From positions 1 to 40,496 of the forward strand of contig NZ_WJWY01000020.1 in assembly GCF_010367435.1 (NCBI RefSeq): a stretch of DNA of 40,496 nt, read 5' to 3'. Under the pieces are notes generated by a model, which did not search any database, was not told the DNA's origin, and saw only the letters and a program-made list of their open reading frames with translations. This stretch comes from Fusobacterium sp. IOR10 (GTDB taxonomy: Bacteria > Fusobacteriota > Fusobacteriia > Fusobacteriales > Fusobacteriaceae). Positions 4,448 through 40,496 of this stretch are shown one piece after another; position 1 is the first letter of the stretch; each line of letters opens with the position of its first letter. The translations under genes were made by a program, and so were the position numbers.

Positions 4448-5488
4448 TTATATATTTATTCCTAAAGTTGTTATTCCTTGAAATTCATCAAGATCAAATG
4501 AAATATTCATATTTTGAATAGCTTGTCCTGCAGCTCCCTTTACTAGATTATCAATAGCTGAAATAACTATAATTTTATTAGTTCTAGTATCTATCTTAAT
4601 ACCAATATCACAGAAGTTGCTCCCCTTTACAAATCTTGTTTCAGGAAGGGAGTCTAAAATTCTCACAAAATAACTAGATTTATAGAAATCTTTATATATT
4701 TCATAAATCTCTTGTAAACTTTTAGAAGTATCCAAATTAGCATATGACACAGCTAAAATTCCACGATTCATAGGAACAAGATGAGGTGTAAATAAAGTTG
4801 TTATTTTTTCATTTTCAAGTAAAGAAAGTTCTTGCTCTATTTCAGCTGTATGTCTATGATTTCCAACAGAGTAAGCCTTTATAGACTCGTTACATTCAGA
4901 GAAAAGACTTCCAACTTTTAATGATCTTCCAGCTCCAGAAACTCCAGATTTTGCATCTATTACAATTGAATTTAAATCAATTAATTTATTTTTAACTAAA
5001 GGTGCCAATGCAAGTAAACTAGCTGTAGCATAGCATCCAGGATTTGCAATTATTTTTGCATTTTTAATATCTTCCTTTGATTTTAATTCAGGTAAACTAT
5101 ATATAGAGTCTTTTATTAGCTCAGGATAATTAAATTTCATTTTATACCAATAAAGAAAATCCTCAGGATTTGTTAATCTAAAATCTGCTCCTAGGTCAAT
5201 TACCTTAACAGAATTTTCCACAGATAATTTTACAAGGTCAGCTGACTTTCCATGGGGAAGAGCTAAAAACAAAACATCAATATCCTTTATTTTATCTTTA
5301 GCCTCTTCAATGGAAATAAGTTTAGAATCCAGCCTGTTTTTAAAATTAGGATATATTTCACTAAATTCTTTACCTGCATAGGTATTAGAAGCCATAAATT
5401 CAATTTGTGAAAATTTGTGATTCATCAGTAACCAAACAAGTTGTTGCCCTGCATAACCAGTAGCTCCAAAAATTCCTACTTTTAACAT
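4448..5488 (-). CDS. argC: N-acetyl-gamma-glutamyl-phosphate reductase
   Basis: NADPH-dependent reduction of N-acetylglutamyl phosphate to the semialdehyde. The 346-residue protein opens with the Rossmann motif GATGYAGQQL and has catalytic C152 in NPGCYATAS and HRHTAEIEQEL further on, as in type 1 ArgC. The ATG at 5488 has TAGGAGGTTAAC directly upstream; an 11-residue longer reading from 5521 would start inside a terminator hairpin and was rejected. It is the first structural gene of the arginine operon and is separated from its promoter by a leader ORF and two terminators. Confidence 0.95.
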   Translation of the reverse strand: MLKVGIFGATGYAGQQLVWLLMNHKFSQIEFMASNTYAGKEFSEIYPNFKNRLDSKLISIEEAKDKIKDIDVLFLALPHGKSADLVKLSVENSVKVIDLGADFRLTNPEDFLYWYKMKFNYPELIKDSIYSLPELKSKEDIKNAKIIANPGCYATASLLALAPLVKNKLIDLNSIVIDAKSGVSGAGRSLKVGSLFSECNESIKAYSVGNHRHTAEIEQELSLLENEKITTLFTPHLVPMNRGILAVSYANLDTSKSLQEIYEIYKDFYKSSYFVRILDSLPETRFVKGSNFCDIGIKIDTRTNKIIVISAIDNLVKGAAGQAIQNMNISFDLDEFQGITTLGINI

Positions 5489-5513: not shown

Positions 5514-5549
5514 ACCAGCATGCTTAGATATTATTCTAAACATACTGGT
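5514..5549 (-). terminator. Second (argC-proximal) terminator of the arginine leader
   Basis: On the minus strand a 15-bp stem, ACCAGTATGTTTAGA paired with TCTAAGCATGCTGGT (two G-U pairs), encloses a six-base loop and runs straight into eight T residues. It ends about 15 bases upstream of the argC ribosome site. It follows the first terminator after only four bases. Confidence 0.85.
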
Positions 5550-5553
5550 GCAT

Positions 5554-5582
5554 AAAAAAAGCCAGCATATATGAATGCTGGC
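5554..5582 (-). terminator. First terminator of the arginine leader
   Basis: On the minus strand GCCAGCAT and ATGCTGGC form a perfect 8-bp stem around TCATAT, followed by seven T residues. It lies about 50 bases after the stop codon of the leader ORF. Its 3' arm (ATGCTGG) can alternatively pair with the 5' arm of the next hairpin (CCAGTAT), which would open both terminators. Confidence 0.85.
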
Positions 5583-5632
5583 AAAAGAATTCTAATAATT
5601 TTATTAATTAAAAATTTTCAAAGAAAAAAATT

Positions 5633-5725
5633 CTAAGTTAAAAAATCATGATCTCTAGTTGAACATTCAGAATAATAGTTTCTATTATATTTGTTGATTA
5701 TCCTGAAATGCCTTAGTAACATCAT
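5633..5725 (-). CDS. Putative leader peptide of the arginine operon (30 codons)
   Basis: A 30-residue ORF begins ATG-ATG at 5725 with an excellent ribosome site (GGGGAGG, 5732-5738) and ends with TAG at 5633. It begins MMLLRHFRIINKYNRNYY and continues SECSTRDHDFLT. It has four arginine codons (AGG, AGG, AGA, AGA at residues 5, 8, 15 and 24) but no run of arginines. Its position between the promoter and two terminators ahead of argC suggests a translated attenuator. I do not recognise the family. The peptide could instead act as a nascent-chain sensor, or be chance, but the ribosome site and position make chance unlikely. Confidence 0.7.
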   Translation of the reverse strand: MMLLRHFRIINKYNRNYYSECSTRDHDFLT

Positions 5726-5752
5726 AATTTTCCTCCCCATTAATTTTCTAGA

Positions 5753-5781
5753 ATACTAACATAATTTTATTTCCATGTCAA
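5753..5781 (-). promoter_or_regulatory. Promoter of the arginine operon
   Basis: On the minus strand TTGACA (5776-5781) and TAGTAT (5753-5758) are separated by exactly 17 bases. Transcription would start about 20 bases before the leader ORF. The promoter begins inside the short gap after the galT stop. Confidence 0.75.
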
Positions 5782-17950: not shown

Positions 17951-17969
17951 ATACATCTAAAAAAACAGG

Positions 17970-18030
17970 CCATAGTATACTATTTAAGGTAGTATGTAGA
18001 GACGCCCCACCATATTAAGGGCTTATACGG
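17970..18030 (-). promoter_or_regulatory. Guanine-type purine riboswitch aptamer
   Basis: On the minus strand the sequence carries the conserved three-way junction: CCGTATAA, then AATATGG within the P2 hairpin, the invariant TCTCTAC between P2 and P3, a P3 stem (ATACTA/TAGTAT) and ACTATGG closing P1. The specificity position before TATGG is C (ACTATGG), as in guanine/hypoxanthine aptamers; adenine aptamers have T. The two loops carry complementary GG/CC-type bases as expected. It should turn the permease off when guanine binds. Confidence 0.93.
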
Positions 18031-18064
18031 TTGTTAAATATTATTTTTTATTTAAGATAGATAC

Positions 18065-18172: not shown

Positions 18173-18182
18173 TTATTTTAAT

Positions 18183-18278
18183 TATACGACTGACGGAAGT
18201 GGAATTAACCACAGGGAGTATAATATTAGTAGCCGACCGTCTGGGCACAAAGAAGCCTGGTTAGTGTTGGTTTTTTTT
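18183..18278 (+). promoter_or_regulatory. ZTP (pfl) riboswitch with terminator, upstream of fhs
   Basis: The sequence has the pfl hallmarks: ACTGACGG, a small hairpin GTGG...CCAC, AGGGAG, and the conserved 3' box GCCGACCGTCTGGGC, in which CCGTC can form the pseudoknot with GACGG. The 3' box also pairs with GCCTGG and GTTGG downstream to make a terminator followed by eight T residues (18271-18278). In this family ZTP/ZMP binding blocks the terminator and raises expression when 10-formyl-tetrahydrofolate is short. That suits control of formate-THF ligase. Confidence 0.92.
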
Positions 18279-20096: not shown

Positions 20097-20123
20097 TTAC
20101 ATTGAAAGAAGAAAATATAAAAT

Positions 20124-20266
20124 AGCGCCAGAACTTATAATTTTATAAGTTGACGAGGACTAAGGTTATCGAAACATTCGGCGGATGCCTTAGAGGTGGT
20201 TACAACCATTATTTTTAAAACTATAAAGTGATTTATAGGACAAAGAAATAATTGTAACATTCTTCT
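20124..20266 (+). ncRNA. glmS ribozyme (glucosamine-6-phosphate-activated)
   Basis: The glmS ribozyme core is clear: the cleavage site A|GCGCCAGAACT (between 20124 and 20125), GACGAGGAC, GGTTATCGAAACATTCGGCGGATGCC interrupted only by the usual bases, GGTTACAACCA, and the 3' elements GGACAAAGAAATAATTGTAACA. With glucosamine-6-phosphate bound it cleaves its own mRNA leader, and the product is degraded, so GlmS synthesis falls. The P1 loop (ACTTATAATTTTATAAGT) is a long AT stem, as in other low-GC hosts. Confidence 0.97.
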
Positions 20267-20347: not shown

Positions 20348-22174
20348 ATGTGTGGAATAGTAGGATATGTAGGAAATGATGAAAAAGCTGTAGAAGTTAT
20401 ATTAGAAGGACTTGGTAAATTAGAATATAGAGGTTATGATTCTGCAGGAATTGCTGTAGTTGAAGATGGTAAAATCTTCATAGAGAAAAAAAGTGGAAAA
20501 CTATCTAATTTAGTAGATGCCTTGGATAATGATGATCACCATTCTAAAGTTGGAATAGGTCATACAAGATGGGCAACTCACGGTGTACCAACTGATAATA
20601 ATGCTCATCCTCATTTAAGTAATGATGGAAAAGTAGCAGTTGTTCACAATGGAATTATTGAAAATTTCTCTTCCCTTAAGGAAGAGCTAATAAAAAAAGG
20701 ATATGTATTTCATTCAGATACAGATACAGAGGTTATAGCTCAATTATTTTCAGAACTTTATACTGGAGATTTAGTTGAAACTTTTTATATATTAAAAGAA
20801 AAAATTAGAGGTTCCTATGCCTTTGGTATAATTCATAAGGATCATCCAGGAAAAATAATATGTGCTAGAAAAGAAAGTCCTTTAATTATTGGTCTTGGAA
20901 AGCATAAAAATTTCATAGCTTCAGATGTACCAGCTATTTTAAAATATACTAGGGATGTAATGTTCTTAGATAATGGAGAAGTGGCATTACTAGAAGAAAA
21001 TAAAGTAACAGTATATAATGATAAAAAAGAAATAATAAAAAAAGAAATTACAAAAATAGACTGGAGTATGGAACAAGCAACTAAAAATGGTTATCCTCAT
21101 TTTATGATAAAGGAAATAGAGGAACAACCTTCAGCAGTTGAAAAAACTCTATCTTCTTATATTAATATTCAAGGGGAAATAAATTTTGGTAAATCCTTTG
21201 AAAATATTGATTTTGACAAAATAAAAGAAATACAAATAATAGCTTGTGGAACAGCTTATTATGCTGGACTTCAAGGAAGTTATTTTTTCAAAAAAATAAA
21301 TGGTCTTAAAACATATATAGATATAGCATCAGAATATAGATATAACGATCCCTTTGTAGATGAACATACACTGGCAATATTCTTAAGTCAATCAGGGGAA
21401 ACTTTAGATACTCTTATGGCTATGAAATTAGCTAAGGAAAAAGGCGCTACAACTTTAGCAGTTACAAATGTTTTAGGTTCTACAATTTCAAGGGAAGCAG
21501 ATGAGGTTATATATACTTTAGCAGGTGCAGAAATATCAGTTGCTTCAACAAAGGCATATACAACTCAAGCTTTAACTATGTATTTATTATCTTTATACTT
21601 TGCAAAAAGATCAGGTAAAATAACAGATGATCAATATGAGAAATATTTAGATGATGCATATAAATTGTCAGAAAATATTGAAGAGATTTTACAAAACAAA
21701 GAAAAAATAAGAGAAATAGCTAAAAAAATCAAAGATAGAAAAAATGGATTTTATTTAGGTAGAGGAATTGATGACAAAATAGCTAAAGAGGGTTCTTTAA
21801 AAATGAAAGAGGTTAGCTATGTTCATACTGAATCTTTCCCTGCAGGGGAATTAAAACATGGACCAATTGCTTTAATAGAAGAGGGAACTATGGTTGTAGT
21901 TGTTTCTACCCAAGATAAAATGGTAGAAAAAGTAGCATCAAATATAAAAGAAGTTAGAGCTAGAGGAGCTTACGTATTAGCAATAACAAAGAAAAATCAT
22001 AAGGAAGTAATAGAGGTAGCAGATGATGTTATATTAGTAGGGGATAATGGAGAATTATTAACTCCAGAATTAGCAGTTATTCCAATGCAGCTTTTAGCTT
22101 ATTATACAGCAGTTGAAAAGGGATTAGATGTTGATAAACCTAGAAACTTAGCAAAATCAGTTACAGTTGAATAA
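20348..22174 (+). CDS. glmS: Glutamine-fructose-6-phosphate aminotransferase (isomerizing)
   Basis: First enzyme of amino-sugar synthesis, making glucosamine-6-phosphate for peptidoglycan and LPS. The 608 residues comprise an N-terminal class II glutaminase (MCGIVGYVG with nucleophile C2, GHTRWATHG, NGIIEN) and two SIS domains (SQSGETLDTL near 350; ESFPAGELKHGPIALI near 490), ending with the conserved DKPRNLAKSVTVE. ATG 20348 follows TTAGGAGGAAGAA. Controlled by the glmS ribozyme in its leader. Confidence 0.98.
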   Translation: MCGIVGYVGNDEKAVEVILEGLGKLEYRGYDSAGIAVVEDGKIFIEKKSGKLSNLVDALDNDDHHSKVGIGHTRWATHGVPTDNNAHPHLSNDGKVAVVHNGIIENFSSLKEELIKKGYVFHSDTDTEVIAQLFSELYTGDLVETFYILKEKIRGSYAFGIIHKDHPGKIICARKESPLIIGLGKHKNFIASDVPAILKYTRDVMFLDNGEVALLEENKVTVYNDKKEIIKKEITKIDWSMEQATKNGYPHFMIKEIEEQPSAVEKTLSSYINIQGEINFGKSFENIDFDKIKEIQIIACGTAYYAGLQGSYFFKKINGLKTYIDIASEYRYNDPFVDEHTLAIFLSQSGETLDTLMAMKLAKEKGATTLAVTNVLGSTISREADEVIYTLAGAEISVASTKAYTTQALTMYLLSLYFAKRSGKITDDQYEKYLDDAYKLSENIEEILQNKEKIREIAKKIKDRKNGFYLGRGIDDKIAKEGSLKMKEVSYVHTESFPAGELKHGPIALIEEGTMVVVVSTQDKMVEKVASNIKEVRARGAYVLAITKKNHKEVIEVADDVILVGDNGELLTPELAVIPMQLLAYYTAVEKGLDVDKPRNLAKSVTVE

Positions 22175-30636: not shown

Positions 30637-33600
30637 GTTACGTTTGGAAAATAACAGCTCTATAGACACGATAAAAGGATTAAAAGCTGAAAATAATTGG
30701 GGCAATATTTTAACAGATATATTAAATGAAGATGGAACAGTTGAAGCAAATCAAGAGGCTTTTGACTATTCAAATGTTAGTATAACAGCAGTAGTTTCAG
30801 GGATAGATTCTAGTTATGGAGATATTGGACAAGAGGGGAATCTTGAAAATATAATTTTAGGACCAAATGGGGTAATTGAATATACGATAATAGTTTCAAC
30901 AAAGGAAAGAGCTATTGGAGAAATTGGAACCATTGGTACAAGTGGAGAAAAACTAGTTAAGGTATATGAAGCGTTAAGAAATAATAATGAAAAACTAGTA
31001 AATGCTTTGAATAAATTATCCCCTAAAGAACCAGATATTACAATAATAAAAGAGAAGACAAATACAGGAAAATATTTACCAGGGGATGAAATAGAATATA
31101 ATATTACCATAACTAACAATGGAGAAGGTTATGCCTATGGATATACTTTATCAGATGATTTAAGTATAATAACTACTGATTTAGCAAATGATAGCACAGG
31201 TTCCATAGATGATTCAAGTGATATAACTTTAGGAAGTGCATTTGATTCAGCAATTATTACTCTTACTGAAAAAGGTGATAATTCTGGATCTAGTAATTAT
31301 ACAGAAGGGAATTCTCAAAATACATTAAATCTAAATGATGATATTTATATTGGACCAGGGGAAACTTTAGCCTATACTATTATTGGGAAAGTTAATGAAT
31401 CTGCAATTGGTAAAATTGATAATCAAGTATCATTTACAAATGGAACAGATGTAAATGATAGTAGTATAATATCAATGGATCCTGAAGACTTGAATGTTTC
31501 AGACATAACCATTGAAAAAACAGTTGGAGTAACTCAGTATGAACCAGATACAGATGTTGTTTATACAATTAAAGTTAAAAATAATGCTGATGATAAATTT
31601 GTGAATAACTATAATATTATAGACAATATAAGTGATATTTTAACTACCCAAGCTGATGGAACACAAGGGCAAGCTTTCAGTAATTGGACTTTAAATGTAG
31701 TGTCTCCTACAACTTCAACTAATGGAACAAAGGTTGGAACTAACATTGCTGGGTCACAAATAACAGATAATATAAATTTAACTGTTGATATGGCTCCAGG
31801 GGAAGAAATTATATATGAATTAGTAGCTCATGTTTCAGTTACCTCTGTTGGAGATATTTTAGATAATACAAGTAGTGGTTTAGATAACGTTATGGAAAGT
31901 GGAAATGGAATCAAATCTTTCCCATCTCAAATTGCTATAAGAAAAACAGTTGATAAAACACAGTATAGCCCAAATGAAGTATTAACATATAATATTATTA
32001 TTGAAAATAAGGGGAAAGGTTATGATGTAGAAGTAAATATTAAGGATTTGTTAAGTTCCATTAAAGATAAGGACGGAGCTGGTATAAATAATGCATTTAA
32101 ATCATGGAATATAACTTCTTCCTTTGAAGGAATTGATACTAATATTACTCCTAGTGGTGATTCAGGATTAATTACAGAACCACTTGTGGATGAGGATTTA
32201 AATACTACAGCTAGAATAGGAGCTGCAACAAGATTAATATATACAGTACAGGCAACTGTTAGTGGAGAAGCTTGTGGTAAAATAAAAAATATAGCAACTA
32301 TTAATGATGAACTTTATTCAGACAAAGGTTCTTTTGCAATTGATCCAGACATAAATGTTTCAATTTCAAGTGATTATCCTAGTTATCCCAAAACAGGGGA
32401 AGATTTAGAGTCACCATTTGATATAACATATACAGTGAAAATTTCAAATGATAGTGAAGCAGGGTTTGCTAAGGGCGTTAAAATAGAAGATGCATTAAGT
32501 AATGTATCAACTACAGCTTTAGATGGAAGTACAATATCAAATTTATTTGAAAGTTGGGATATATCAACTAATGTTTATGGAGATGGTACTGTTTTAACTA
32601 GTTCTAGTGCTTATCCACTAACAAGTACAACTACAGATATTGACGATACTGCAAATATTACAGCTGGTGGGTATGTGGAATATATAATTAAAGCAAAGGC
32701 AAAAAGAGATCCAAGTATGGATATAATCCCATATGAAAATATAATAAATACTGTGACAGTAACTCCAAAGGATAAAAATGAAGTTATTATGTCTCCTATA
32801 AATGTATCTTATACAACAAGTAAAAAACTTCCAGCTTTAAGGATAGAAAAATCAACTTCAAATTTATCATATACTCTAGGTGGAACAGTTGAATATTTAT
32901 TAAAAGTTGAAAATATAGGTGAAGGTTATGCAGATAATGCAACTATTTCAGATGAATTATCAAATAATTTTAGTGAATGGACTATAGAAGAAGAAGTTCC
33001 TTCTCCATTTGTAGGAACTGATGCAGATGTTAATGGAAATATTTCAAATAACACAGATATAAATGGAACTATAGATATAGCTCCAGGGGAAATAATTACA
33101 TATAAAATAACAGGAACAGTAAAATCTCTTCTTTCAGGGGAAACAATTACAAATATAGGAACAGTTACAGATACTCAAAGGGGAAATACATATAAAGCTT
33201 CAGCTAAATTAATGCTAGCTGATCCAACTGGAATATACATTACAAAAAATGCATCTCAGTATTCATATAGCCCAGGGGGGGAAATAAATTATACAGTTAC
33301 ACTTTACAATACAACATCTCTTCCTCTTGATTTTGGAGTTTTAGGGTATGAATTTAGAGACAAATTTTCTGAAATTGATGCTAATTTAGCAAATGATATG
33401 GGTGGAACAATAGCAGATACAACAGGAAGTCCTTTTAAAAAATTATTTGTTTCAGTAAATGGTGGATCAGAAACTGAAATAACAGCAGAAGCAGATTATG
33501 TGCATCAACCAAGTTTATTAGCAGGAATAGTTGAATCAGGGAACTTAATTAAGCCTAGTGAATACACTTATAAATTTAGAGGAATTTTGAAAGATAGGGT

Positions 33601-36600
33601 TCTTTCTGGAGAAATAAAAAATGAAGCAGTTATAGAAAAAACAGACGGAACACAAATAGCAATTACTTCCCATGAAATAGATGGAAGTAACAGTGGTTCT
33701 TATACAAGAAATGTTGATAAAAGTTTGTATATTCCAGGTGAAGAATTAACATACACATTTACAGCTAAGGGAAATAATGGATATTTAAACAACTATAGTG
33801 TTAATGAGGATGTAAAGAATATTCAAGTTGAATTATTAGATGGAACTACAGGAAATCCATTTTCAATAGATGATGGTGAGCCTCAATTTACAGTGGAAAG
33901 ATATGTAAATGGAGTTTTAGATGGAACTTCTAATTCTAATGGTACTGTAACTAGTCCTGTGTCAGATAATGAAAATATAGTTCAAACTATAGATGTATCT
34001 CCAGAGGACACTATTATATATAAGGTGAAAGGAACTATAAGAAAGGATATAGTTGGAGCAATTAATTTTAATGGTCTAGTAACAGAACCCTATAGACATA
34101 ATTTATCAATAGAGACAACAGTGGAAGAGGGAGGATATATTCCAGGTGAAGAAATAACACTAAAGACAACAATAGAAAATAATAGTAATGGTAATGCAGG
34201 AAATATAGATTTGCAAGATCTTATTGACAGTCTAGAGTTAGAACTCTCTGATGGAACCACAGGAAAATTATTCCCAAATGGTTGGACAATAACAGCTGAA
34301 AAATCAGGGGATAATTCACAGTATATAAATGCAGGAACTTATACAGATTTAAGTGATATTAATACTGAAATTGGTATTCCTATTGGAGGAAAATTAATTT
34401 ATAAAATTACAGGAAAGGTAAATGAACTTGCAGTTGGAGCTACAGTTAATAAAGTAATACTTGATGGTGACACTGTTTCTGCAAATGTACAAAGTTTATC
34501 TTCCAATTTAACTGTAAAAAAAGAAGTAGTATCTTATTATAGAAATAATGGAACAAGTGAAGTAAATGGAGGATATGTTCCAAATGGTTGGATAAAATAT
34601 AAAATAACTATAAATAACATTGGAAAGGGAATAGCAGATGATATAGCTGTTTCAGATACTTTGGCAAGTATAAAAACAACAGCCTATGATGATGATGGAT
34701 CAACTAAAGAGATAAATGCTTTTTCAGAATGGGAAATTTTAAGCTGTGAAAAAACAGGAACAGATAGTCAATCTAATATTAACTTAACTAGTGGTACAGA
34801 AGCCCTAGGAAGTACTTCTCTAGGATGGGAAATGGATATTCCTTCTATGGGTAGTGTAACTATAAATATTTTAGCCCATGTGGATGAAGGAGCAATTGGG
34901 GATATTAAAAATACAGTATCAGTTGATGGAAAAGATTATAGTTCAGAAACTTCAAAATCTTTAGTTGGGAAAGCTGTATTAACTAAGAAAGCTTACGAAG
35001 AAGATGGAGTTACTTCTAAAAGCAGATATATTTCAGGGGAAAAAATAGTATACAAGGTTATTGTTAAAAACACAGGGGAAGGAATAATCTCTGGAACAAT
35101 TAAAGATGGAATAAGTAGTATTTTATCTTTAGTTGAAGAAACTGGAAGCAATGGAAATAATCCAAAGGAAGCTAGTTTTGATAGCTTTACAATAACAGCA
35201 AGTAAAACTAGTAGTAATGATATAGATAATATAACAAAAATAGGAACTTTTGAATTAAATTCAACTAAAGAAAATATTGATATAGATGATGTATTAATTA
35301 TTGCTCCAGGAGCTACAGTTGAATTTGAAATTACTGGAATAACTAAAGAAAATATTATGGGAAATATTGTTAATAAAGTTACATTTGGAAATATTTCTAA
35401 AAGTGTAACAGTAAGAGAAAAATCTTCAAATATCTCCCTTGATAAAAAAGTTATTAAAGTAGGGGATACAACTATTCCAGAAGGAACAGACCCTATTAAT
35501 TATGATCCAGGGGATACAGTTGAATATGAGATAACAATTACAAACACAGGATATGGACATAAAAATAATTTAGTTTTAAATGAAAATATAGATGAAATTC
35601 AAGCTAAAATAGCTGGGAATACATTATCAGAAGCTTTTGAAAATTATTCATTTGAAGTTATTGATAGTGGAAATAGTTATATTAGACAGGTTGGCTTAAA
35701 GACAGTAATTGATATGGATCCAGGAAAAGAAAATGCTCCAGAAGTTGTAACAATAAAAGTTACAGGAAAATTAAAGGATAATATTATAGGAGAAATAGAT
35801 GAAAATATAGTAACTTACAATAATATAATTGCAAAAAGTGAAAAGTTACAACAAAAAACTCCAGAAATAACATATTATAAATCTTTTACTGATTCTTTAA
35901 AGAATGAAATTCCAAATAAAGAGAATTTTGCACCAGAAGAAACACTTTTCTACAAACTTGTAATTAAAAATACAGGGGAAGGTTATGCTAATGACTTAAG
36001 TGTAATTGATAAGATTTATGATTTGAAAACAAGTCAAAATGATAAGGCCTTTCAAGATGGAGAGGTAACAGTGACAACAAAAATTTATAATGGAACTTCT
36101 TCATTAGAAGGAACAAATGATGGTAAAACTTATGTTACTGGAGATACTTCAGGAAGTTCTTTAATAAATACAACTATAGATTTAGCTCCAAATTCAACAG
36201 TGGAATTTTATATTGCTGGTAAAACAACTGCCTATGCAATAGGTTCTATTACAAATAAAATATTAGTTGAAGGAGAAGGAAATCCAACTATTGAATCAGG
36301 AAAATCTGATAGTGTAACAACAGAATCAATTCCATCAGACATAGTTGGAAGAAAAATAGCAGGAACAGATCCAAATACTACAGATGTATACTATACTCCA
36401 GGGGGAGATATTTCATATACTTTAACCTTTGAAAATAATGGAGATGGACCTGGGATAATTTATATTAAGGATATAGTTTCTAATTTAAAAGTAACTGGAC
36501 CAGGTGGGGAAGAAATTAATGCTTTCCAATCAGACTATAAATTTGTTTTAAAAACAGAAAGTGGAGATGTTTATTGTCCATCTAGTTCCATAGAGCTTTT

Positions 36601-39600
36601 ATCAGGAGAAAAAATAATAACTGGGGACTTGGATACAGATATAAGGTTAGGAGAAAATTCTTCATGTTCCTTTACTTTAACAGGAAAAGCTAATGTGAAA
36701 GCTGTAGGTTCTATAAAAAATATAGCAACCTATAATATAAATTCTCCTGCAGGAACTGAGGTAACTATATCAGATACAATTGAACCAACTCCAGGTGTGG
36801 TAGAAATTACAAATGTAGCAGATGGAGATATTATTGCTTCAGGAGAACAAGCAACTTATACTCCAGGAGAACAAGCAACTTATACTTTAACAATTAAAAA
36901 TACAGGGGATGGATATGCTCAAAATGTAAATGTTGAAGACTTATTAAGTACTATGACAGGAGAAGCTTCAGGGGATGGAAGTCTTGAAGCAGTTTTCCAA
37001 TCAATAGATAGTGTGAGCACAACTATTGGAGATAATAGTGCTTCTATAGGAACAGGAACTACAACTAATGGATATCAAGGTAACTTTGATATAGCCCCAG
37101 GAGAAAGTATAGTAATAACATTAACAGGAACTGTTAATGACAATATGCTTGGAGAAATAATAAATAATCCAGTAGTAACATATAATGAAGAGGAATTATT
37201 AGCTCCAGTATCTTTAACAACTGTTCTTCCTGAGTTAAATATAGTGACAAAAATATCAACAGATGGAAGTATTTATTCAGAAAATTCAGTTAACTATATA
37301 CCAGGTGAAAAACTATATTATGAAGTAACATTATCAAATATAGGTAAAGGTTGGGATAATGATGTTAAATTGAGTAATTTAATTAATGAAATAAAGGCAA
37401 CTAATTCAGATACTTCTGTTGGGACTGAAAGTCTTGCATTTGATGAAAGTAGTATAATTATTACTTTAGAATCTGGGGATAATGTAGTTTTTGATTCAAG
37501 TGCACATAATATAGATGCGACTATGGATATTGCTCCAGGGGAAAGTATTATTTTCAAAATAGAAGGAATTGTTAATTCTGATATAATTGGAGAAATTAAG
37601 CTTGATTCAAAATATGAAAATTCAAAGGGAACAATAACTACTGAAACTTCAAATGAGGTTGTAGCTACACAAGGGATAGGGGAAGTATCAATAGAAGAAA
37701 AAATTAAAGATCCTAATACAGGAGTATTTAATTTAGATGAGTCAAATTATATACCAGGTGAAAATGTAACATTTAAAGTATTTATAAAAAATACTGCAGA
37801 CACCTTTGCACAGAATATAGAAATAAATAATCTATTAACTAATATGGAAGTAACCTTAGCAGATGGAAGCCAAGGTGATGCCTTTAGTGAATGGGAAATA
37901 ATGCAAGAGGGGCCTTTAAAATCAGAAAGTGTGCTAACTAATATTTTTACCAATGGAAATGATTTGAAGTCAGAAGGTAATTTAGCACCAAATGATGAAT
38001 ATGCCTTTATAATTACAGCAAAGGTAAATGAAAATGCAGTTGGAACAATAGAAAATAAATCCCTATTAACTGTAAATGGTATAGTTAAAGATCCTAGCAA
38101 TACTATTATATTTACTCCAAATGAAAATGAAATAGAAATGATAAAATCGACAGATTCTACAACATATTATCCAAATGGAGAAATGGTCTATAAGGTAGTT
38201 ATAGAAAATACAGGAAATTCAATTATTAATGATATAGTTTTTGAAGATGCTATAAACAGTGAACAAGTTTTATTAGGAGATGGAAATAATGGAGATCCAT
38301 TTAATAGTACAACTGTTCAAGGGGAAGTTGTTTCAGGAGAAACAACTATAACAACAACTCATCCAAATGTTTCAGCAGACAGTACAACAGGAAAGGTTAC
38401 TTCAACTTCCTTTGATATTAAAATAGGAGAAAAGATAACCTTCCAAATAACAGCAACAGTTAATAATAATGTTGTGGGAGATATAAAAAATGTTGCAACA
38501 TATACAGTTGATGGTGGAACGCCAGTTAGCAGTAATCAAGTAACTACTATATCTGAAGAGTCTGAAATTGTGTTAACGAAAGTTGTAGAAGAACCTACAT
38601 CCAATGAGTATATTCCTGGAGAAAAAATAAAATATAAAATAACAATAGAAAATACAGGAAAAGGATTTGGAGACAATATAAATATAGTAGATGAAATTTC
38701 AAAAATAATGGTTGATACAGTTAATGGAAGTGCAGTTGCATTTAGTGAAAATGATTGGGAATGGACAAAGGAAACAGAAGAACTTCCAAATGTTATTCCA
38801 GATTTAACATCATTTACTGGAAAGGATTTGGATATAGATGTGGATATAGAAAGTGGTAAAACTTTAACACTTTATGTTGAAGGAACTGTAAATTCACAGG
38901 CTTATGGAGATATATCAAATACAGTTACAGGTAAAAATGGAGAGGATGATATACCAGAATCAACTGTAAATATAAGCTCTTCATTGGGAAAAGTTGAAAT
39001 TACAAATACAGCAGATGTAGGCAGTTATACTCCAGGAGAGCCAGTAACTTATATTTTAACAGTAACAAATAATGGTGATGGATATGCTCAAAATGTAAAT
39101 GTTGAAGATTTGTTAAGTACTATGACAGGGGAAATATCAGGAGATGGAAGTCCTCTGGGATTAGTTTTTAAATCAATAGATACTGTAAATACAACTATTG
39201 GAGATAATAGCGCTTCTATAGGAACTCCAAGTACAAGTAATGGATATGAAGGAAATTTCAATATTGCGCCAGGAGAAAGTATAGTTATAACATTAACAGG
39301 AACTGTTAATGATAATATACTTGGAGAAATAGTAAATGATCCAGTAGTAACATATAATGGAACTAAATTAAAAGATCCTGTAAGTTTAGAAACAGTTCTT
39401 CCAAAGTTAAATATAGTAACTAGAATATCAGAATATGGACATGTTTACTCAGAAACTCCAGTTAACTATATTCCAGGTGAAACATTATATTATGAGGTAA
39501 CACTATCAAATACAGGTGAAGGTTGGGACAATAATGTTAAATTGAGTAATTTAATTAATGAAATTAAAGCAGATGCTTCAGATGGAACTGAAAGTCTTGC

Positions 39601-40496
39601 ATTTAAGGAAAGCACTATAATTATTACTTTAGAATCTGGGAATAATGTAGTTTTTGATTCAAGTGATTATAATCTAGATGCAACTATGGATATTGCTCCA
39701 GGGGAAGATATTATTTTCAAAATAGAAGGAGTTGTTAATGATAATATTACTGGAACAATAACACTTGATTCAAAATATGAAAATTCAAAGGGAACAATAA
39801 CTTCTAAAACTTCAAATGAAGTTTTGGCCACACAAAAAAATGAAGGTCTATCTGTAACAGAAAGGATTAAAAATCCAGATACAGGGGAATTTGATTTATT
39901 TGAATCAAGTTATGTGCCAGGTGAAGATGTAATATTCAAAGTATTCATAGAGAATCCTGAAGATACATTTGCTCAAAATATAGATATAAATAACTATTTA
40001 AAATCTATGAAAGTAGAACTAGCAGATGGAAGTGATGGAGATGCCTTTAGCAGCTGGACAATAGTACAGTCTGAGTTTCCAACTAATAATAATAGTGTCA
40101 TAACTAATACAATAACAAATGATAATAATTTAAAATCAACAGGAAATCTAGCTTCAAAGGATAAGTATTCATTTATAATAACAGCAAAGGTAAATGAAAA
40201 TGCAGTTGGAGAAATAAAAAACAATTCAACTTATACTTTAGGTGCTGGAAGTGAAAATTATAGTAATTTAATTGCATTTAAGCCAGAAGAAAATAAAATA
40301 GAAATAACAAAAACAGCAGAAACTGAAACTTACTATCCAAATGGTGAAATGGTCTATAATGTAGTAATCGAAAATACAGGAAATTCAATTATTAATGATA
40401 TAAGTTTTGAAGATGATGTTAATAAAGAACAAGTATTATTAGCAGATGGAACTGATGGAGATCCATTTGATAGTACAACTGTAACAGGTGAAGTTG
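30629..40496 (+). CDS. Giant DUF11-type repeat surface protein, continuation (partial, frame 2, no stop in window)
   Basis: From 30629 to the right edge the second frame stays open for about 3,287 codons, with no start of its own and no stop. It consists of about 23 modules of 130-160 residues (TIGR01451/DUF11-like, Ig-like beta folds). Each starts with a strand and YxPGExVxYxIxIxNTGxGYA, then xVxDxLSxI, often DGSxGxAFxxW, then IAPGExIxYxITGxVNxxAxGxIxN. Cysteine is very rare. The family is found on bacterial surfaces as stalks or adhesins, but no ligand can be inferred. The cell-anchoring C-terminus lies outside the window. Together with the N-terminal part the visible product has about 3,490 residues. 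Confidence 0.85.
36803..38995 (+). repeat. Higher-order repeat, copy 1 (five modules)
   Basis: A block of five consecutive modules that is repeated in the same order from 38996. Matching landmarks (GAAATTAC at 36803/38996, GGATATGCTC at 36911/39080, CAGGAAATTC at 38211/40377) give a period of about 2,166-2,193 bases, i.e. roughly 723 residues. The difference is explained by an extra 24-base unit in copy 1. Confidence 0.88.
36842..36889 (+). repeat. 24-base tandem duplication within a module
   Basis: GGAGAACAAGCAACTTATACT with three further bases (CCA, then TTA) occurs twice in direct succession, encoding GEQATYTP-GEQATYTL. Copy 2 of the higher-order repeat has only one unit at this place, so the event probably followed the block duplication. 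Confidence 0.9.
38996..40496 (+). repeat. Higher-order repeat, copy 2 (cut by the window edge)
   Basis: Second copy of the five-module block: long near-identical stretches such as GDGYAQNVNVEDLLSTMTGE, GNFxIAPGESIVITLTGTVN and ENTGNSIINDI recur at the same spacing as in copy 1. The window ends in its fourth module. Further copies may follow. Confidence 0.88.

Follow-up and report, generated by a model that had tools for sequence, protein, structure and literature searches.

Predicted Arginine-Codon Attenuator Ahead of argCJBDF in Fusobacterium sp. IOR10 and Related Leaders in the Fusobacteriales

The DNA analyzed here, a stretch of 40,496 nucleotides from Fusobacterium sp. IOR10 (contig NZ_WJWY01000020.1) that we refer to as the window, carries on its minus strand the arginine biosynthetic operon argCJBDF, in which argC (4448–5488; TIGR01850) is followed by argJ (4436–3219), argB (3238–2327), argD (2314–1145), and argF (1138–140). 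Between positions 5781 and 5488 of this strand, a promoter, a Shine–Dalgarno sequence, a short open reading frame (ORF), and two intrinsic terminators succeed one another before argC is reached. The promoter (5753–5781) comprises TTGACA (5781–5776) and TAGTAT (5758–5753), which are spaced by 17 nt and accompanied by an upstream TG (10 of 12 matches), and it is kept in the sister genome G006 as TTGACA...TAATAT. The Shine–Dalgarno sequence GGGGAGG (5732–5738) is located 6 nt ahead of the ATG (5725) of the leader ORF MMLLRHFRIINKYNRNYYSECSTRDHDFLT, which consists of 30 codons and a stop codon (5633–5725). The first terminator, T1 (GCCAGCATTCATATATGCTGGC followed by T7; 5561–5582), and the second, T2 (15-bp stem with U-tract; 5514–5549), come next, the latter directly 5′ of the Shine–Dalgarno sequence of argC. 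The promoter with its 17-nt spacer, the 30-codon ORF with its ribosome site, and the paired terminators ahead of argC had all been named in a preliminary description of this DNA, and all are present. The two terminator-like sites of the leader compare with 0.1 expected from dinucleotide shuffles, and folding of the leader RNA confirmed that it is strongly structured (z = −6.7 vs shuffles).

The leader ORF, which is putatively translated, contains four Arg codons on the minus strand: AGG5 (5713–5711), AGG8 (5704–5702), AGA15 (5683–5681), and AGA24 (5656–5654). Across 17 representative leaders, Arg accounts for 61 of the 238 codons at positions 2–15 (26%), compared to 2.7% in the genes of the window. 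The preliminary description had considered the four codons to be of a rare type, which is correct for AGG but not for AGA: only 41 of the 234 Arg codons in the window genes are AGG, whereas AGA is the major Arg codon with 182. In the leaders, AGG makes up 40 of 65 Arg codons, an excess that may reflect slow decoding, the needs of base pairing, or both.

ArgC is encoded in 31 of 96 genomes of the order Fusobacteriales, and in 26 of these 31 a Shine–Dalgarno sequence and a short ORF with clustered Arg codons, followed by terminators, precede argC; in a few of these 26 loci, T1 and T2 were recognized by inspection of the folds rather than by the terminator scan. The relatives' leaders were gathered by ArgC-anchored retrieval of loci; with the whole leader as a nucleotide BLAST query, G006 was the sole match beyond low-complexity ones. 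A Shine–Dalgarno sequence stands ahead of every aligned leader ORF, and conservation throughout the order extends to Arg codons 4–13, to the two terminators, and to the alternative folds. The encoded peptides include MKMIRRIRDNRI, MIKFIRRIRER, MMFRISRTRRQ, and MLIRSSRMRK. Two further genomes (G008 and G021) have the operon argH-argG-argC, where a leader encoding MRSRYNxKE and one terminator are situated ahead of argH. Of the 31 argC-bearing genomes, G014, G061, and G062 yielded no leader; the gene ahead of argC is hisE in G061, and argH-argG precedes it in G014. Two leaders in series occur in G028, G017, G010, and G039, and at the loci L020, L022, L032, and L138 a serial pair of Arg leader ORFs, each followed by terminators, lies upstream of argC. 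An extra hairpin and a nearly invariant AUGAGUAUA(C/U)AAAA are seen in L006 (about 1263–1335), L007, L008, L020, L022, and L032, that is, in three genera, where they sit between the leader ORF and T1. In the record of Ilyobacter polytropus (G030, plasmid pILYOP01) the leader region is unannotated. The genus names Leptotrichia and Sebaldella, which we presume to apply to certain relatives, rest on their position in the order. Looser matches to the leader pattern were obtained at 5 of 80 argC loci from outside the order; at L055, from a metagenome bin, the mini-ORF MFSFNITTTTNRRRREFLVNSGSIA (NRRRREF) and a strong terminator are found upstream of argC and may constitute an independent Arg attenuator.

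The first conserved fold pairs the start region and the early Arg codons with the second half of the ORF: In IOR10, the Arg-codon strand AGGCATTTCAGGATAAT (segment 1; 5697–5713) pairs with TATTATTCTGAATGTTC (segment 2; 5661–5677) and is the predicted anti-antiterminator for this antiterminator strand. Analysis of 15 Leptotrichiaceae leaders with RNAalifold yielded an outer stem between the Shine–Dalgarno/start region and the stop region, an inner stem in which the Arg codons AGGAUAAGGGA pair with UCCUUURUC, and T1. For the leader hairpin together with T1, 95.2% of the cells in these leaders are paired and 12 pairs are doubly changed, while slid controls for the same structure reach at most 53% paired; the covariation score is 0.377 as opposed to at most 0.103 when slid.

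Segment 2 in turn is complementary to both terminators. Its part TGAATGTT is the complement of AGCATTCA (segment 3; 5572–5579), which lies within the 5′ arm and the loop of T1, and its part TATTATTCT is the complement of AGAATAATA (segment 5; 5529–5537), located in the apex of the 5′ arm and in the loop of T2, so that in IOR10 and G006 one half of a single 17-nt strand, UAUUAUUCUGAAUGUU, complements T1 and the other half T2. The pairing with the 5′ arm of T1 reads UGAAUGUU:AGCAUUCA in IOR10 (segment 3 with segment 2: −8.0 kcal/mol, p = 0.014), GAAUGUU:AACAUUC in G006, and, with one bulge, UGUCAUGACUAAU:GUUAGUCAAUGGC in the Sebaldella-like group; that with the 5′ arm and loop of T2 reads UAUUAUUCU:AGAAUAAUA in IOR10. 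These antiterminator pairings, which exclude the terminators, have p = 0.012–0.014 in IOR10 and p = 0.014–0.017 in G006. When the 17 representative leaders are taken together, pairing with either 5′ arm, that of T1 or that of T2, is stronger than in dinucleotide shuffles (combined p ≈ 4e-5 each), values that ignore shared ancestry and comprise individual ones from 0.002 to 0.7; the T1 antiterminator is not significant against shuffles in L006, L020, L022, and L032. A different alternative had been put forward in the preliminary description, namely that the 3′ arm of T1 (ATGCTGG) pairs with the 5′ arm of T2 (CCAGTAT) and thereby melts both. The lower arm of T2, ACCAGTATG, can indeed pair in this way, and the 7 bp with one G-U have p = 0.03 against shuffles in IOR10, compared with 0.6 for the nearest relative. 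As the main conserved switch this pairing was rejected, the p-values being scattered among relatives, and the alternative that appears better conserved than a mutual melting of T1 and T2 is the pairing of segment 2 with their 5′ arms.

The energetics of these folds depend on how far transcription has proceeded. If a ribosome is taken to occupy AGG8, a transcript that extends to the T1 loop has the T1 antiterminator as its unconstrained minimum free energy structure in both IOR10 and G006, and for one that extends to the T2 loop this structure is segment 2 paired with T2. At equilibrium, the terminator is favored once T1 is complete (−26.9 vs −21.4 kcal/mol for the antiterminator), and so are both terminators once T2 is complete (−51.2 vs −34.7 kcal/mol). 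The completed terminators are more stable than the antiterminators, and any switching must therefore be kinetic. A nested fold that combines segment 2 with T1 and T2 and also the 3′ arm of T1 with the 5′ arm of T2 amounts to −31.3 kcal/mol, compared to a minimum of −35.2 kcal/mol.

A leader of this kind could act through its codons or through the peptide it encodes. Like SpeFL or the fungal arginine attenuator peptide, the nascent chain might sense arginine (or ornithine) and arrest the ribosome at high or low ligand; the peptide is short and Arg-rich, and an N-terminal motif, RRIR(D/E), along with FRI, is partly conserved across families. However, the motif takes forms as different as MLLRxFRI, LIRSSRMRK, and MIKFIRRIRER, and the C-terminal half is conserved neither in sequence nor in length or frame: In G006, the loss of a single nucleotide changes the reading frame behind codon 14, whereby NYYSECS becomes TIILNV, while the RNA of segment 2 is identical over 19 nt and is read in another frame; in L031, the ORF stops after 13 codons and the RNA is kept. 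Retention of the RNA while the frame and length of the peptide change is what a mechanism based on codons plus RNA predicts, and not what an arrest peptide does. The arginine-sensing nascent peptide ending in STRDHDFLT that the preliminary description had offered is disfavored by the same frameshift and by the 13-codon ORF, and we regard a sensing peptide as improbable. The search for the same peptide and hairpins in relatives was answered in two ways: The Arg leader, the terminators, and the folds are conserved, the C-terminal half of the peptide is not.

Arginine operons are textbook targets of ArgR and, in some Gram-positives, of T-boxes; elsewhere among bacteria, control of these biosynthetic operons falls to ArgR/AhrC and arginine T-boxes. 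No ArgR domain PF02863 was detected in any genome of the order that was searched, including that of IOR10, and PF01316 is absent from the IOR10 genome; controls were detected in both cases. At gathering as well as relaxed thresholds, Rfam returned no leader, T-box, or riboswitch family in the IOR10 leader and none that fits the relatives' loci, and no T-box was found in the window; the leader thus differs from ArgR/AhrC and T-box systems alike. The Rfam matches in the window, all outside the leader, are a purine riboswitch (17953–18050, minus strand) ahead of a xanthine/uracil permease gene, a ZMP/ZTP riboswitch (18176–18253, plus strand) ahead of a formate-THF ligase gene, and a glmS ribozyme (20113–20263, plus strand) upstream of a 608-aa ORF at 20348, three elements that lie within about 2.3 kb. 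Elsewhere in the window (30644–40495, plus strand), a 3284-aa frame of a giant protein runs off the contig end.

Alternatively, the two hairpins might terminate constitutively or mark a processing or insulation site, with the ORF being incidental and any regulation exerted by a repressor at the promoter. T1 and T2 are thermodynamically dominant, and the promoter region is likewise conserved in G006. Yet a constitutive double terminator right ahead of argC would silence the operon, the enrichment of Arg codons, the covarying stems over the ORF, and the complementarity of the antiterminator would be left without explanation, and no ArgR is encoded; we consider this scenario about as improbable as the sensing peptide. 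Even less credible is an RNA aptamer or protein-binding attenuator of the riboswitch type with the ORF as a passenger, for which the strong structure (z of −6.7) and the extra conserved hairpin with AUGAGUAUA ahead of T1 in some genera might speak, but to which no Rfam family corresponds in the leader or the relatives' loci, while AUGAGUAUA is absent from the IOR10 leader and window and the conserved nucleotides coincide with the Arg codons and their complements.

The association with arginine genes extends beyond argC. A scan for a Shine–Dalgarno sequence, an Arg-rich mini-ORF, and a terminator gave 43 matches including duplicates, just one of which is away from an arginine locus; it covered 583 kb of Fusobacteriales DNA (both strands counted) that is enriched for arg loci, and the figure is no unbiased genome rate. 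The same pattern scan found a second leader, MLLVVNIRSRRLCKNKYSS..., with a strong terminator in IOR10 and G006 (L147, reverse strand 530–628; L144, 472–588), which precedes a gene for a family-3 solute-binding protein and then argG, a candidate arginine-uptake operon. In a Sebaldella-like genome, MRNNFRIMFSHNFIQ and a terminator are located ahead of argG. A strict pattern for the Arg stem of the Leptotrichiaceae matched argC leaders only, and a covariance model, searched genome-wide in this family alone, matched each of the 17 argC-bearing Leptotrichiaceae genomes exactly once, at argC, and one other genome marginally. The model recognizes the L013 leader from the Fusobacteriaceae, outside its training set (E = 3e-8); the IOR10 leader scores weakly (14 bits) and is too diverged for it.

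From these features we infer, with a probability of roughly 0.8, that the leader attenuates transcription by a ribosome-mediated mechanism, with charged Arg-tRNA as the sensed signal, and stands in for the absent ArgR. That leader translation tunes read-through by codon stalling, one of the two options suggested in the preliminary description, is supported by the Arg codons, the terminators, the alternative folds, and the lack of ArgR. In the absence of translation, the closed leader hairpin would represent the off state: The start region and segment 1 with the early Arg codons would hold segment 2 and allow T1 and T2 to form. When Arg-tRNA is scarce, the ribosome would stall at AGG5/AGG8, cover segment 1, and release segment 2, which could then pair with the 5′ arm of T1 and subsequently with the 5′ arm and loop of the emerging T2; the released 3′ arm of T1 may additionally pair with the lower 5′ arm of T2. 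With both terminators disturbed, transcription would continue into argCJBDF. Ample arginine would instead let the ribosome proceed to the stop codon; with the antiterminator then masked or folded otherwise, T1 would terminate transcription, and T2 would serve as a backup or second gate. By anatomy, four of the five features that define classical attenuation are in place, namely a short leader ORF with a Shine–Dalgarno sequence and clustered cognate codons, an anti-antiterminator (1:2) that holds these codons, an antiterminator (2:3) exclusive with the terminator, and an intrinsic terminator between the leader ORF and the first structural gene, of which there are two in the argC leaders of IOR10 and its relatives; the fifth feature would be a response in vivo, in which starvation for the cognate amino acid increases read-through in a manner dependent on leader translation. 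More tentatively, and at slightly less than even odds, the whole order may have swapped ArgR for Arg-codon attenuators (argCJBDF, solute-binding protein-argG, and argHGC), with one ORF strand opening both argC terminators simultaneously, its halves on T1 and T2, and with stacked leaders steepening the response in some genera.

The cognate codons in a leader ORF, the intrinsic terminator before a biosynthetic operon, and the mutually exclusive 1:2, 2:3, and 3:4 pairings resemble the trp, his, leu, thr, phe, and ilv leaders of Proteobacteria and Actinobacteria. Unlike these classical attenuators, the Fusobacteriales leader would sense arginine, is order-wide, fits no Rfam family, and has two serial terminators in the argC leaders examined as well as two serial leader ORFs in some genera. 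A 2005 survey listed T-boxes as the sole RNA regulation of arginine operons (PMC1262725), and the open-licence PMC papers that we searched do not describe arginine leaders in Fusobacteria. Functionally, the speF orf34 and rbfL leaders come closest; they share the Arg codons but have other outputs. In Salmonella and E. coli, Arg codons of the upstream ORF orf34/SpeFL sense arginine and alter the fate of the mRNA (PMC6386406); its target, however, is ornithine decarboxylase, it acts via Rho, RNase G, and sequestration of the ribosome-binding site, and it has a conserved peptide core (HIRR) and no intrinsic-terminator attenuation of an arg operon. In the rbfL leader of S. aureus, AGA/AGG codons, which are also present here, pause ribosomes at low arginine (PMC13009471), but its 8-aa ORF serves translational repression of a biofilm regulator by occlusion of the ribosome-binding site. 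If true, our reading would add a new amino acid pathway, and a lineage at the level of a phylum without ArgR, to the known range of ribosome-mediated attenuation. From the serial terminators and leaders, which would amount to a natural experiment, one could learn how attenuators limit leakage and make their response sharper, and the regulation of arginine synthesis in Fusobacteriota would become a directly testable question.
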